A model generated the notes under the pieces. The model ran no database searches, was not told the origin of the DNA, and was given only the letters and a program-made list of their open reading frames with translations. A stretch of DNA of 63,286 nt from Candidatus Ornithomonoglobus intestinigallinarum (GTDB lineage Bacteria > Bacillota > Clostridia > UBA1381). Shown here one piece after another: positions 3,501 to 43,239 of this stretch (position 1 is its first letter; each line of letters begins with the position of its first letter). Where the stretch lies: assembly GCA_018715365.1 (NCBI GenBank), contig DVLU01000029.1, forward strand, positions 1 through 63,286, read 5' to 3'. Made by a program: the position numbers and the translations under genes.

Positions 3501-3686
3501 TGAATTATGTCAAAATAAAATTATTTCTTTACAAACTTTTTTACAAAAATATATGTACAAATTTATGAAAGTATGTTATACTTATCATATACGGAAAAAT
3601 GTATGATGACTGCATAAATACATATTTTGCCGTATCGATTATGCTCTTTGTTATGTTTTATTCATTATTAAAAGGAGGGATTTGAT

Positions 3687-5072
3687 TTGGCTGTAAAATA
3701 TTATCCTCTTGCCGCCGCACAGGCGACGCAGCACGATCTCGCAAAGGAGTTCGGAACATCTCAGGTAATAAATATCTGCGTATGCTCAACGCTTCAACAG
3801 GAGATAGATTTTGAGCTTTTGAGAAAGTGCGTAAAAGAGGAGTACAAGCGCTACGAATGTCTGCGCATACGTTTCACAAAGCCCGACAAAAACGGCGACG
3901 TTATGCAGTACATCGCGCCGCGCGACGACCGCGAAATAGACTTTTTTGATTTAAGCGACAAAAGCCGCGAGGAAATCGAAATGACGCTCAACGCATGGTC
4001 GTTCAAGCCGTTCTCGGAGCCGAACGCGCCGATGTGCGAAATAAAAATGGTGAAAATGCCCGACGGGTATCAGGGGCTGTATGTTTCGATAGACCACAGG
4101 CTCGCCGATTCAAGCGCAATGATAGTTATGATAAACGATATAATGGAGCTTTACTGCCATTATCACTTCGGGTCGCCGTATCCGGCGCCGCTGCCGTCGT
4201 ACGTTGACGCGCTTGAAAAGGACCTTGCTCGGCAGCAATCGGAAAAGCTTGTCAAGCGTGACAGTGATTTCTGGGACGAGGTCCTCGAGATGGGCGAACC
4301 GCTTTATTCGGACGTTACCGGCACATGGAAGCTTGAGGAATGCCGCAAAAAGCACAATAATCCCAAGCTGCGCGCCGCCGACAGGGAAATAAAGGACACG
4401 CGCGTCGGCTTTGCCGTATTTCATCTTGAGCCGGAGCCTTCGATGCAGCTTTTGAACTACTGCCTTAACAACAACGTTTCAATGACGAACCTTTTGCTTA
4501 TGGGGCTGAGGACATATCTTTCAAAGGCAAACGACGGTCAGACCGACATAAGCATACGCAACTTTGTTTCGCGCCGTTCCACAAAGCTCGAAAGCTTCAG
4601 CGGCGGCAGCCGCACGCAGTGGTTCCCGTGCCGGACGATAATAGAACCCGACACGGAATTTCTTGACGGCATATATATAATACAGGACCTGCAAAACAAG
4701 GTGTACCGTCATTCAAATTACGACCAGGCGGCGCTTGCGGAAAAATTCGCGAAAAAATTCAATCAGCCGCCGCACTCAACGTATGAGGGAATACTGCTGA
4801 CGTATCAGCCGCTGCCCGTTCGTCTGCAAAACCCGAATCTTAAGGGAATACCGAACAGGTCGATGTGGCTCAGCAACGGTACGGCCGTTCAGAAATTATA
4901 CCTTACCGTTATGCACTCGCCCGATGCGGGGCTTGAATTTTTCTTCAAGTACCAGCAGGCGGAGCTTTCGCGCGACGACGTTGAGAAGGTTTATTATTAC
5001 CTCATGAAAATAATATTCATGGGTGTTGAGCATCCGGAGCTTACAGTCGGCGAAATAATAAAAATGGTATAA
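3687..5072 (+). CDS. Free-standing condensation-domain protein
   Basis: This is a 461-residue soluble protein of the NRPS condensation / chloramphenicol-acetyltransferase-like superfamily. It begins YYPLAAAQ, like the start of condensation domains. The active-site motif HHxxxDG appears as DHRLADS, with His137 as predicted general base and Asp141 as the structural aspartate; Gly is replaced by Ser142. The protein is a single domain with no adenylation or carrier part. The start is TTG, preceded by AAAGGAGGG. The next two genes supply a carrier protein and an acyl-AMP ligase, so it probably transfers a carrier-bound acyl group to an amine or hydroxyl acceptor. Acceptor and product are unknown. 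Confidence 0.8.
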   Translation: MAVKYYPLAAAQATQHDLAKEFGTSQVINICVCSTLQQEIDFELLRKCVKEEYKRYECLRIRFTKPDKNGDVMQYIAPRDDREIDFFDLSDKSREEIEMTLNAWSFKPFSEPNAPMCEIKMVKMPDGYQGLYVSIDHRLADSSAMIVMINDIMELYCHYHFGSPYPAPLPSYVDALEKDLARQQSEKLVKRDSDFWDEVLEMGEPLYSDVTGTWKLEECRKKHNNPKLRAADREIKDTRVGFAVFHLEPEPSMQLLNYCLNNNVSMTNLLLMGLRTYLSKANDGQTDISIRNFVSRRSTKLESFSGGSRTQWFPCRTIIEPDTEFLDGIYIIQDLQNKVYRHSNYDQAALAEKFAKKFNQPPHSTYEGILLTYQPLPVRLQNPNLKGIPNRSMWLSNGTAVQKLYLTVMHSPDAGLEFFFKYQQAELSRDDVEKVYYYLMKIIFMGVEHPELTVGEIIKMV

Positions 5073-5128
5073 GCAATGCGGACAGGCCATGTTTTTAAAA
5101 TTCAAAAATTTCAAGGAGGAAAATAAAA

Positions 5129-5359
5129 ATGTTTGATGACCTTAAGGAAAAACTGAGCGAATATGTTGACACGCCCGTTGATGAAATAACGGAGGATACC
5201 CGCTTTATAGAAGACCTCGGAATGAATTCGTTTCAGTTTATGTCGCTTCTCGGATATCTTGAGGAGGAATACGATATAGTCGTTGACGAATCGGAGGTAC
5301 GCGGCCTTTCGACTGTCGGAGACGCCGTAAAATATATCGAGGATCTGACAAAGGAATAA
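5129..5359 (+). CDS. Acyl/peptidyl carrier protein
   Basis: This is an acidic 76-residue carrier protein of the usual four-helix type. The phosphopantetheine attachment site is Ser34 in DLGMNSFQFMSLL, where most relatives have DS[LI]; here Asp is replaced by Asn (GMNS). The start follows AAGGAGG by a good spacing. It lies 56 bases after the condensation-domain gene and 37 bases before the ligase gene, so the three should be co-transcribed. It is unlikely to be the fatty-acid-synthesis AcpP, because no fab genes are near and the helix II sequence differs from the conserved DSLDxVEL. A 4'-phosphopantetheinyl transferase must come from elsewhere. Confidence 0.85.
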   Translation: MFDDLKEKLSEYVDTPVDEITEDTRFIEDLGMNSFQFMSLLGYLEEEYDIVVDESEVRGLSTVGDAVKYIEDLTKE

Positions 5360-5396
5360 TTTCTGGGAGCAATAAATTTTAACGGAGGGAACGCAT

Positions 5397-6908
5397 ATGG
5401 CGCTTAACACAATAAAGGATATTATAAATCAATGCACAACAGCCTTTGCCGATATGACCGCTTTTAAATATATAGAAGGCAGGGAAATAATCGAAAAGAC
5501 GTATTCACAGCTTCGTTCCGACAGCGAATCGGTAAGCCGTGCGCTTGAAAAGCTCGGCCTTGCCGGCAAGCACATCGCCGTTATAGGCATGAGCAGCTAC
5601 GACTGGATAATAAGCTATCTCGGTATCGTAAACAGCGCAAGCGTTGCGGTGCCGCTCGACGCATCGCTGCCGCCGGCGGAGCTTCATGAGCTGATCGACC
5701 GCGCTCACGCCTCGGCCGTTATATTTGACAAAACGCAAAAGGCCATGATTGCGGACGTGCTCGAAAAATGCCCCGGCCTTAAAATACTTATCGCCATGCA
5801 GGATTCGGCTTCTGTTGACGGAGCTTACTCGCTGCCGCAGCTCATCGAGGAAAACCGCGGCGAATACAGCACGGAAATAGATCCCGATAAAATGTGCACG
5901 CTTATGTACACCTCGGGCACAACGGGCAAAAGCAAGGGCGTTATGCTGTCGCACAGAAACCTTGCAGCAAACGTTGAAAACTGCGTTGTGCTTATAGAGC
6001 CCGGCACCGTTTCAATGTCGGTTCTGCCGATTCATCACTCGTACTGCTTAACGTCCGGCGTATTAAAGAGCATTTCGCTCGGCGGCTGCATATGTATAAA
6101 CGACTCAATGCTGCACTTTGCGAGAAACTTTAAAAAATTCCGGCCGGAGGTTACGCTGCTTGTTCCTCTTATTATCGAAACGGTTTATCAGCAGATACGC
6201 GACGCCGACCCGAGCATTCCGAAAAAGCTTGCCGCACAGGCGGCGTTCGGCGGCAATCTGAAGATAATATTCAGCGGCGGCGCATATCTCAATCCCGACC
6301 TTGTGGACTTCTTTAACGAATGCGGGATAAGCATACTCCAGGGCTACGGCATGACGGAATGTTCGCCTGTCATAAGCACGAACAATCAGCTTGCATCGCG
6401 CCCCGGCTCCGTGGGCAAGCCGCTTGCAAACTGCGAGGTTAAGTTTGACGACGAGGAAATCTGCATAAAGGGCTCAAGCGTTATGATGGGCTATTACGAA
6501 ATGCCGGAGGAAACGGCGCAGACGATAGACAGTGACGGCTGGCTCCACACGGGCGATCTCGGCCGCATGGACGAGGACGGCTTCCTGTATATCACAGGCA
6601 GAAAGAAAAACCTTATTATCCTTTCAAACGGGGAAAACATTTCGCCGGAGGAGCTTGAAAACGCTATAGGCAAGGCTGACCTTGTGAAGGAAATTCTCGT
6701 AAGGGAAAGCGGCTCGAACATCGAAGCCGAAATATACCCCGACGCCGAATATGCCGAAAAGCATAACATCACCGATATACGCGCCGCGCTGCAGTCGGTA
6801 ATCGATGATTTCAACAAGGACATGCCGCTTTACAAGCGCATTACAGCTCTTAAGCTGCGCGATACGGAATTTGATAAAAACACAACGAAAAAGATAAAGA
6901 GATTTTAA
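5397..6908 (+). CDS. Acyl-AMP ligase (AMP-binding enzyme)
   Basis: This is a 503-residue ANL-superfamily enzyme. Motifs in order are the P-loop YTSGTTGKSKG (171-181), LPIHHSY (210-216), GYGMTECSP (317-324, with Glu321), the hinge GDLGRMDEDGFLYITGRKKN and a C-terminal TKKIKRF with the expected adenylation lysine. The LPxHH segment and the ITGRKKN hinge resemble long-chain acyl-CoA or acyl-ACP ligases. The FDxS motif of amino-acid-activating domains is absent, so a fatty or other carboxylic acid is the more likely substrate. It probably loads the carrier protein encoded just upstream. The start is an ATG after CGGAGGG. A two-hairpin terminator follows. Confidence 0.85.
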   Translation: MALNTIKDIINQCTTAFADMTAFKYIEGREIIEKTYSQLRSDSESVSRALEKLGLAGKHIAVIGMSSYDWIISYLGIVNSASVAVPLDASLPPAELHELIDRAHASAVIFDKTQKAMIADVLEKCPGLKILIAMQDSASVDGAYSLPQLIEENRGEYSTEIDPDKMCTLMYTSGTTGKSKGVMLSHRNLAANVENCVVLIEPGTVSMSVLPIHHSYCLTSGVLKSISLGGCICINDSMLHFARNFKKFRPEVTLLVPLIIETVYQQIRDADPSIPKKLAAQAAFGGNLKIIFSGGAYLNPDLVDFFNECGISILQGYGMTECSPVISTNNQLASRPGSVGKPLANCEVKFDDEEICIKGSSVMMGYYEMPEETAQTIDSDGWLHTGDLGRMDEDGFLYITGRKKNLIILSNGENISPEELENAIGKADLVKEILVRESGSNIEAEIYPDAEYAEKHNITDIRAALQSVIDDFNKDMPLYKRITALKLRDTEFDKNTTKKIKRF

Positions 6909-6930: not shown

Positions 6931-6978
6931 TGCGGGGGCATCGCCCCCGCACTCCGCCTTACGGCGGGTTCTTTTTTA
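6931..6978. terminator. Double-hairpin terminator between convergent genes
   Basis: A nine-base stem TGCGGGGGC/GCCCCCGCA (6931-6939, 6943-6951) is followed by CCGCC/GGCGG (6954-6958, 6963-6967) and a T run on the plus strand. It ends the ligase transcript and may also stop the convergent transglutaminase gene. Confidence 0.8.
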
Positions 6979-6979
6979 T

Positions 6980-8368
6980 TTAAAAATAGTTTGATTCGGA
7001 AACGGGCAGCTGCGGATACATTGTCCAGCTGTGGTCACGCGCAAGCTGCGCATCGCTTACCAGAAAATAATCGTGGCTCAAAACAGGCACGGAGCTGACG
7101 GGATCATCCCATGTGACGTCAACGTTGTACCATGCGCCGTCAAGATAAACCTTATTCCATAAATGGCTTTCCGCGCCGCCGCTTGAAAATGCCGTGCCGC
7201 CGACCTGTATGCACGGGATATTGCTGAGATAGCACATCAGATCAAACGCCTCGGCGTAGCCGTCGCATACGGCAAGGCCGTCAAGCAGCGCGCCGACGGC
7301 GCTGTGGCCGCGGCTTCCCGTGTTTCTGTATGTGATTGTGTTCACAAGATAATCATGGATCGCTTTTACTTTATCGTACGGCGTCATGCTGTCGTAAATA
7401 AGGCCCGAATGTATTTTTATCGCCTCGTTCAGCATACGTCGCGTGTCATCGTCAAGCGAGGGCAGCTTGCCCTCAAGATATGCCATCGCCGAAACGGCGC
7501 TGTCGTATATTATCGTTACCGTTATTTCACCGGCGTTCGGATACCACGACGACGAAAGCTTTTGAACGTCGCAGAAGCGGTTTATTTCACTGTTCAGCTG
7601 CTCCGCATAAAAGCTTTCCTGCCCTTCGGGAACGTATATAATGATCTGTGACGCCCTTCCGTTCACAACATCTCCGAACTTTTCCATGAGCTCGTCACCC
7701 GAATTTATTTCGATATACATAACGGGCTCCGTAACCGGACCGAAACCGCTTACAGGCGTTGAGCCGGCGTTTATCGCCCCGTCGTAATAAAGCGTTTCAA
7801 AAAGCGTCATATCGGTGCCGTTTACAGTGCAGTCAAGCGCGCTTGCGCAGATTATGGCGGCGTCGGCGCGGTAGCAGTCGCCGCGCGCATAAATAAGGCC
7901 GACGCTGTCGGCAAGTCCGTATGGATTTTGCCAGTCAACCTCAATGTAGCCGAGCGCACGCAGCGCAAACGTAAGCAGCTGCTCAAGCGTCACGTAATCG
8001 TCCGTGCCGAACTCCGTATCGGAAACGCCGAAGGCTATGCCGTTTCCGTATGCGTAATCTATATACATATCGGCCCAGCCCGTATCGGTAAACGGATTGC
8101 CGTAATACCTCGAGAGCGCATCGCTCTCGGCGCCGAGCATACGCACGAGCATCGTTACGGCTTCGCCGCGCGTAAGACGGCTTGTAAGCGCAAAATCGGG
8201 GCTTCCGTCGCCGTTCTGACCGACTCCGCGGAAAAGCCCGAGCTCATAAAGACGGTTCGCCGAGCTTTCCGCATACGCAAGAAAATCGCCCGGCACCTCC
8301 CTTGCCTGCGCCGTTATCGAAAAGCATAATATAATTGATCCTATAAAAGCAAAAATTTTTTTAAGCAT
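6980..8368 (-). CDS. Secreted SLH-domain protein with transglutaminase-like domain
   Basis: This is a 462-residue protein with a cleavable signal peptide (residues 1-22, ending ITAQA). Residues about 35-140 hold S-layer-homology repeats (LTRGEAVTMLVRMLG; FTDTGWADMYIDYAYGNGI), which in the family bind pyruvylated cell-wall polymers. The C-terminal part is a transglutaminase-core domain with predicted triad Cys368 (AVCDGYA), His402 (ESHLWN) and Asp417 (VDVTWDD). It would be anchored on the cell surface and act as a cysteine protease or cross-linking enzyme. The spacer between the domains (about 220-320) has no recognised fold. It stands alone, convergent with the C-carrier-ligase cassette. Confidence 0.85.
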   Translation of the reverse strand: MLKKIFAFIGSIILCFSITAQAREVPGDFLAYAESSANRLYELGLFRGVGQNGDGSPDFALTSRLTRGEAVTMLVRMLGAESDALSRYYGNPFTDTGWADMYIDYAYGNGIAFGVSDTEFGTDDYVTLEQLLTFALRALGYIEVDWQNPYGLADSVGLIYARGDCYRADAAIICASALDCTVNGTDMTLFETLYYDGAINAGSTPVSGFGPVTEPVMYIEINSGDELMEKFGDVVNGRASQIIIYVPEGQESFYAEQLNSEINRFCDVQKLSSSWYPNAGEITVTIIYDSAVSAMAYLEGKLPSLDDDTRRMLNEAIKIHSGLIYDSMTPYDKVKAIHDYLVNTITYRNTGSRGHSAVGALLDGLAVCDGYAEAFDLMCYLSNIPCIQVGGTAFSSGGAESHLWNKVYLDGAWYNVDVTWDDPVSSVPVLSHDYFLVSDAQLARDHSWTMYPQLPVSESNYF

Positions 8369-41892: not shown

Positions 41893-42069
41893 TTATTGTT
41901 CTCCTTTTTTTGTTTTCATCATTGCTTCAATGCTATTATATCATATAGGGTGTACAAATATCAAGTTTTATGTTATAATATTTAAAAATATGTTCCCCGC
42001 GGCTGCTTTGCGGCCTCGGACAGGGGCAAAAATCACACCGTACAAAAACACAAAAAGGAGACCGAAATT

Positions 42070-43239
42070 GTGATAAAAATAAAAAACGCAAAAATAATCA
42101 CCTGCGCCGGAGAGGTTTTTGAAAACGGCGCCGTAATATTCGATGAAAAAATCCGTTATGCGGGCGCCGATACGGACGCGTTCGACGTATCGGAAACGAT
42201 AGATGCGTCGGGGCTTGTTGTTACACCCGGACTTATCGACGCGCACTGCCACGTCGGAATATTCGAAGACTCCGTCGGCTTTGAGGGCGACGACGGCAAC
42301 GAGGACAGCGACCCCGTAACGCCGCACCTTCGCGCGATAGACGGCATAAACCCGTTTGACAGGGCGTTTGAGGATGCCAGAAATGCGGGAATTACGGCCG
42401 TTGTGACGGGCCCCGGCAGCGCAAACCCGATAGGCGGGCAGTTTGCCGCTGTAAAAACGAGCGGGATCTGCATAGACGATATGATTATAAAAGCCCCGTG
42501 CGCGATGAAATTTGCACTCGGCGAAAACCCGAAAACGGTATACAGCGAAAAAGAGGACGCGCCCGTTACGCGCATGGGCACGGCTGCGCTTATACGCGAA
42601 GCGCTTATAAAAGCATCGATATACATGGAACAGTTTGAGAACTGGAAGCGCGATCCCGAGGAACACGACCGTCCGGAATTCGATATGAAGGCCGAAGCTC
42701 TTATGCCCGTCATCAAAGGCGAGCTGCCGGTAAAAATCCATGCCCACCGTGCCGACGACATATGCACGGCAATACGCATAGGCAGGGAATTCGGGCTGAA
42801 AATAACGATAGAGCATTGCTCCGACGGCGACAGGATAGCCGACATTTTATCGCGTGAAAACGTGCCGGTTATGCTCGGGCCGACGCTTTCCGACAGAAGC
42901 AAGCCGGAGCTCAAAAACCTGACGTTTGACACGTACAGGAATTTATCGGAGCGCGGCATAAGCGTTGCGATAATAACCGATCATCCCGAGATTACAATAG
43001 AAAACCTCCCGCTGTGCGCCGCAATGGCCGTGCGCCACGGCATGGACGAAACGAAGGCGCTGTATGCAATAACGAGCGCAGCGGCGAAAAACTGCGGCAT
43101 AGGCGATATTGTCGGAACGATTGAGGTCGGCAAGGACGCGGATATTGCCGTGTTTACCGACTTGCCCGTGAGGTTTGACGCAAGGTGCGTGTATACGTTT
43201 GTAAACGGTAAATGCGTGCACAGCCCAAAGGCGGAATAA
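42070..43239 (+). CDS. Amidohydrolase-family protein
   Basis: This is a 389-residue amidohydrolase with the metal motif DAHCHVG after VTPGLI, a later HAHRADDICTA and a HCSDGDRIAD region, and an ITDHPEI aspartate. It resembles imidazolonepropionase-like enzymes of unknown substrate. The start is GTG, after AAGGAG. The gene stands alone, convergent with sirC. The C-terminal GKDADIAVF strand belongs to the small beta domain. Confidence 0.88.
   Translation: MIKIKNAKIITCAGEVFENGAVIFDEKIRYAGADTDAFDVSETIDASGLVVTPGLIDAHCHVGIFEDSVGFEGDDGNEDSDPVTPHLRAIDGINPFDRAFEDARNAGITAVVTGPGSANPIGGQFAAVKTSGICIDDMIIKAPCAMKFALGENPKTVYSEKEDAPVTRMGTAALIREALIKASIYMEQFENWKRDPEEHDRPEFDMKAEALMPVIKGELPVKIHAHRADDICTAIRIGREFGLKITIEHCSDGDRIADILSRENVPVMLGPTLSDRSKPELKNLTFDTYRNLSERGISVAIITDHPEITIENLPLCAAMAVRHGMDETKALYAITSAAAKNCGIGDIVGTIEVGKDADIAVFTDLPVRFDARCVYTFVNGKCVHSPKAE

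Follow-up and report, generated by a model that had tools for sequence, protein, structure and literature searches.

Organization of the locus

The genes under study lie on contig DVLU01000029.1 of Candidatus Ornithomonoglobus intestinigallinarum; the whole stretch of 63,286 nucleotides analysed is called the window here. A free-standing condensation enzyme (C), a carrier protein (T) and an AMP ligase (A) are encoded in one compact operon with short gaps on the + strand (Table 1). By eye, a GGAGG sequence resembling a ribosome-binding site was found upstream of each of the three genes. Their GC content is 44-53%, with no clear contrast. The trio is divergent from spoIIIAA, with which it shares a gap of about 295 bases, and convergent with a gene for a protein combining an SLH domain and a transglutaminase-like part.

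Table 1. Features of the C-T-A locus and its immediate surroundings (positions in the window)
Feature	Position	Strand	Remarks
spoIIIAA	2459..3391	-	
Putative promoter TGTACA-17-TATACT, extended -10 (TGTTATACT)	3554..3582	+	kept upstream of the cassette in 9 of 9 close-clade members
C, free-standing FAA-type condensation enzyme, OaaC-like	3687..5072	+	461 aa, start codon TTG, motif DHRLADS
T, stand-alone acyl carrier protein	5129..5359	+	76 aa, attachment site Ser34 (GMNSF)
A, fatty-acyl-type AMP ligase, predicted carrier loader	5397..6908	+	503 aa
Terminator-like stem-loop with T run, 3' of the operon	6953..6978	+	consensus match only; chance alone predicts equally many such matches in the region
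SLH/transglutaminase gene	6980..8368	-	

A first-pass annotation had described three compact genes for a condensation domain, a carrier and an AMP ligase. The open reading frames and Pfam bear this out: the C protein matched Condensation (PF00668) with 135.6 bits against a cut-off of 30.6 and belongs inside the condensation superfamily, the carrier matched PP-binding (PF00550; 44.6 bits, cut-off 20.8) and the ligase AMP-binding (PF00501; 237 bits, cut-off 29.9). The catalytic residues His137 and Asp141 of the C protein, lying in DHRLADS, and the carrier Ser34 were found as annotated, the latter being unchanged in six of six relatives. The ligase had been taken to activate acyl rather than amino acid substrates. 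This agrees with its top NCBIfam match, a long-chain-fatty-acid--CoA ligase model, although its 261 bits fall short of that model's curated cut-off (476); with 149 bits, the generic model for amino-acid adenylation likewise stayed under its cut-off. Among the NCBIfam models the ligase is closest to fatty-acyl and aryl CoA ligases.

Relationship to the fatty acid amide cassettes

When the C protein was compared with the sequences of solved structures, PDB entry 12kh ("Condensation Domain Protein") stood out with 611 bits; of the 456 residues that aligned, 58% were identical. The next-best structures were canonical domains of nonribosomal peptide synthetases (NRPS), all below 33 bits.

The family of fatty acid amide (FAA) cassettes was reportedly described by Chang et al. 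2021. Two preprints (PMC13142362 and PMC13060934) build on that work. The first of them presents the crystal structure of OaaC, the free-standing condensation enzyme that acts in fatty acid amide synthesis in Coprococcus eutactus; this enzyme is a homodimer and opens when the holo carrier binds (PMC13142362). OaaC, OaaACP and OaaA constitute the Oaa system, whose product is oleoyl aminovaleric acid; the reconstituted proteins yield fatty acid amides in vitro with 5-aminovalerate and GABA as acceptors (PMC13142362). The family motif is given as (D/H)HxxxD(S/A/G), in which the second His and the Asp are almost invariant and the last position is Ser in 42%, Ala in 36% and Gly in 17% (PMC13142362). 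The second preprint names the operon CTA and reports it from Blautia wexlerae and other Lachnospiraceae, T being flanked by C and A in every isolate found; at a 70% identity cut-off, the survey detected the operon in Lachnospiraceae only (PMC13060934). The table entry for 12kh gives neither organism nor gene. We infer that it is OaaC of C. eutactus, as the length of the entry, its two chains, the insertion from Gln214 to His224 and the DHxxxDS motif fit the published description.

The window trio shares with the Oaa system the use of three free-standing proteins and the DHRLxDS motif. DHRLADS also fits the published family motif, and the OaaC-specific insertion at about residues 214-224 aligns with the window C protein without a gap. 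Compared through the C enzyme, the two systems differ in that the window clade is a sister clade, sits in another lineage and has its own conserved promoter. With the CTA operon of B. wexlerae and other Lachnospiraceae it has the gene order C-T-A and, as predicted, fatty acid amide synthesis in common, but again the lineage is another one. Canonical NRPS condensation domains, starter domains included, belong to the same superfamily (PF00668). The window C enzyme differs from them in having neither an acceptor carrier nor a multidomain protein around it, and in carrying DHxxxDS instead of HHxxxDG.

In a tree computed with a quick method and midpoint rooting, without outgroup or bootstrap and with other classes of condensation domains left out, the window C protein and OaaC fell together into an OaaC-type clade of 27 rows (SH-aLRT 100). 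The close relatives form one clade within it (SH-aLRT 100), which adjoins OaaC and the Lachnospiraceae-type rows as sister of the OaaC branch. From the 12kh match, the motif, the position in the OaaC clade, the C-T-A order, the published Oaa and CTA products and the conserved promoter we conclude, with a probability of roughly 90%, that the trio represents an OaaC-type FAA (CTA) cassette. It would then be a further, well-supported case of a known system in a sister clade; what is new are the lineage, the cassette-borne promoter and the clade-specific basic residues Arg138 and Lys403.

One might also ask whether the trio belongs to a larger NRPS pathway encoded elsewhere in the genome, which the first-pass annotation had named as an outcome that would speak against its reading. 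The pathway does turn out to be a known one, but not a larger one: in the assembled genome (2.32 Mb in 104 contigs, 84.8% complete) no second condensation domain was found, and we rejected this candidate.

Distribution of the cassette

At E values up to 1e-20, 29 of the 70 genomes searched from the window's own family had a relative of the C protein. With the limit set at 1e-60, the numbers were 23 of 393 for genomes drawn from across the class, 53 of 397 for a second family (that of G400) and 12 of 38 for a third (that of G283). Among the searched genomes, relatives with 76-86% identity were confined to the window's own family and the family of G283, and the top relatives in the family of G400 were at most 51% identical. 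In the tree, G020, which belongs to the window's family, groups with rows from the family of G283. A whole-genome search found no C relative in either of the two genomes of the same genus (97% and 88% complete). Such a scattered distribution over two bacterial families suggests that the cassette has spread horizontally between gut Clostridia. The window contains no tRNA gene and thus no hint of an island at a tRNA site, and the search for plasmid-borne copies gave one distant match only, from Bacillus (23% identity).

The first-pass annotation had proposed a comparison of neighbourhoods for linkage within the trio and with spoIIIA. Linkage within the trio is conserved: C-T-A order was found at every locus with enough flanking sequence, except for three loci with a lone C gene. 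Linkage with spoIIIA is not, in the relatives whose surroundings were read.

The lone enzymes are of the OaaC type with the motif DHRIMDS and have no adjacent carrier or ligase (L095, L096, L097; L129, 8441-9829; L130, 8072-9475). They come from three genomes of 5.7-6.9 Mb and might depend on a borrowed carrier or on a different acyl donor. Within the window's bacterial family a second, distant C-T-A branch was also seen (L010-L026), about 35% identical and with AHAILDG or HHxxMDA motifs.

Neighbourhood and promoter

Because of the shared intergenic gap, the trio had been proposed to be linked to sporulation or the envelope; it would then be regulated together with spoIIIA and, while spores form, acylate an amine or alcohol of the envelope. 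The divergent arrangement of C and spoIIIAA speaks for this proposal, but among the genomes checked the adjacency occurs in the window genome only. In the close relatives that were checked, spoIIIAA and the trio lay on separate contigs, except in G020, where some 30 kb separate them, and the trio was flanked by unrelated genes in each. The same-genus genome G050 has spoIIIA with a different gene upstream and no trio; there the block GatA-GatB-AsnS-GlnA-RNaseJ-transglutaminase runs uninterrupted on a different contig, again with no trio after it. In the other same-genus genome, G049, the contig stops just upstream of spoIIIAA, and the absence of the trio is taken from the whole-genome search. 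The window trio is thus flanked by two blocks that are not adjacent in G050 as assembled, and co-regulation with spoIIIA cannot be argued from the gap between them. Its placement beside spoIIIA appears accidental.

The promoter points the same way. Ahead of the C gene, both the window and its relatives carry T(A/G)TACAAA and then an extended -10 element, TGTkATAmT, the two hexamers being separated by 17 bases. A weight matrix was derived from seven loci; it also took in two chance sites and is weakened by them. It scored 32-39 bits in these loci and likewise in L032, a copy identical with one of the seven, and 25 bits in L068, which had been held out; other upstream regions reached at most 13 bits and the remainder of the window at most 11. 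The distance from the promoter to the start codon varies from about 75 to 310 bases. From its consensus we read the sequence as an ordinary housekeeping (sigma-A) promoter that is conserved at this place. Such a promoter, travelling with the cassette, argues against a sporulation link, which we now consider very improbable.

A cassette-specific promoter was rejected as well: in the rest of the genome the core pattern was matched once exactly and five times with one mismatch, against six matches for a reversed control. The second exact match of the core pattern lies at 41953-41979 (TACAAA, 12 bases, TGTTATAAT), upstream of an open reading frame at 42070-43239. On the other side of the trio, the SLH/transglutaminase gene is grouped with those for RNase J, glutamine synthetase and GatAB in a block that is conserved in G050, where the trio is lacking.

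Candidate specificity residues and the acceptor

Comparing 27 OaaC-type with 46 other C enzymes, we found that Arg138, which adjoins the catalytic His137, is present in all 27 of the former and in 1 of the latter; Lys403 occurs in 27 and 0, respectively. Further clade-specific residues exist besides these two. Since OaaC uses amines bearing a carboxylate, we hypothesize that Arg138 and Lys403 hold the carboxylate of the acceptor. By analogy the likeliest acceptor would be an omega-amino acid of the 5-aminovalerate or GABA class, yet it may differ from that of OaaC, whose branch is only a sister to the window clade.

Alternatively, the cassette could be of the FAA type but take as its acceptor an amine that is aromatic or plain (tyramine, tryptamine or ethanolamine, for instance). 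The family as a whole accepts various amines (PMC13142362), acyl ethanolamines are increased in CTA carriers (PMC13060934), and the sequence gives no certain reading of the acceptor. Nevertheless, the use of 5-aminovalerate and GABA by the closest characterised enzyme (PMC13142362) and the presence of Arg138 and Lys403 make this alternative rather unlikely.

Certain condensation domains form esters, and the C enzyme might accordingly couple the acyl chain to an alcohol. However, its motif agrees with that of the amide-forming family, and the closest characterised enzyme makes amides (PMC13142362), so that ester formation has hardly any probability left. The N-acyl product proposed at first has gained a precedent, a homologous cassette making such a product in vitro (PMC13142362). 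Taken further, the trio could represent a distinct, horizontally moving OaaC-type subfamily with a portable promoter, in which Arg138 and Lys403 bind the carboxylate and N-acyl omega-amino acids, possibly an undescribed product, are made; we put this forward tentatively.

Proposed function and amine supply

For the FAA cassette we propose that it is expressed from its own housekeeping-type promoter. The ligase would adenylate a free fatty acid and load it onto the holo carrier protein, from which the free-standing C enzyme would move the acyl group onto a small soluble amine. Transfer to a free amine would itself release the N-acyl amide, making a thioesterase unnecessary. The cassette probably moves between gut Clostridia as a unit, and it may serve in fatty acid detoxification, the role proposed for CTA (PMC13060934), or in action on the host. 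Human G-protein-coupled receptors are targets of the lipids from FAA cassettes, and the bearers of such a cassette may be protected from toxic fatty acids. A sister clade beyond the Lachnospiraceae that has a promoter of its own and candidate specificity residues adds to the likely producers and offers a direct test case for what selects the amine.

With respect to amine supply, no match to Pyridoxal_deC above the cut-off, and hence no amine-forming decarboxylase of this kind, was detected in the assembly; in the search for D-proline reductase the control genomes were without any match. The amines may be supplied from outside. Besides the ligase of the trio, the assembly encodes three further AMP-binding proteins, and one match to a phosphopantetheinyl transferase was obtained.
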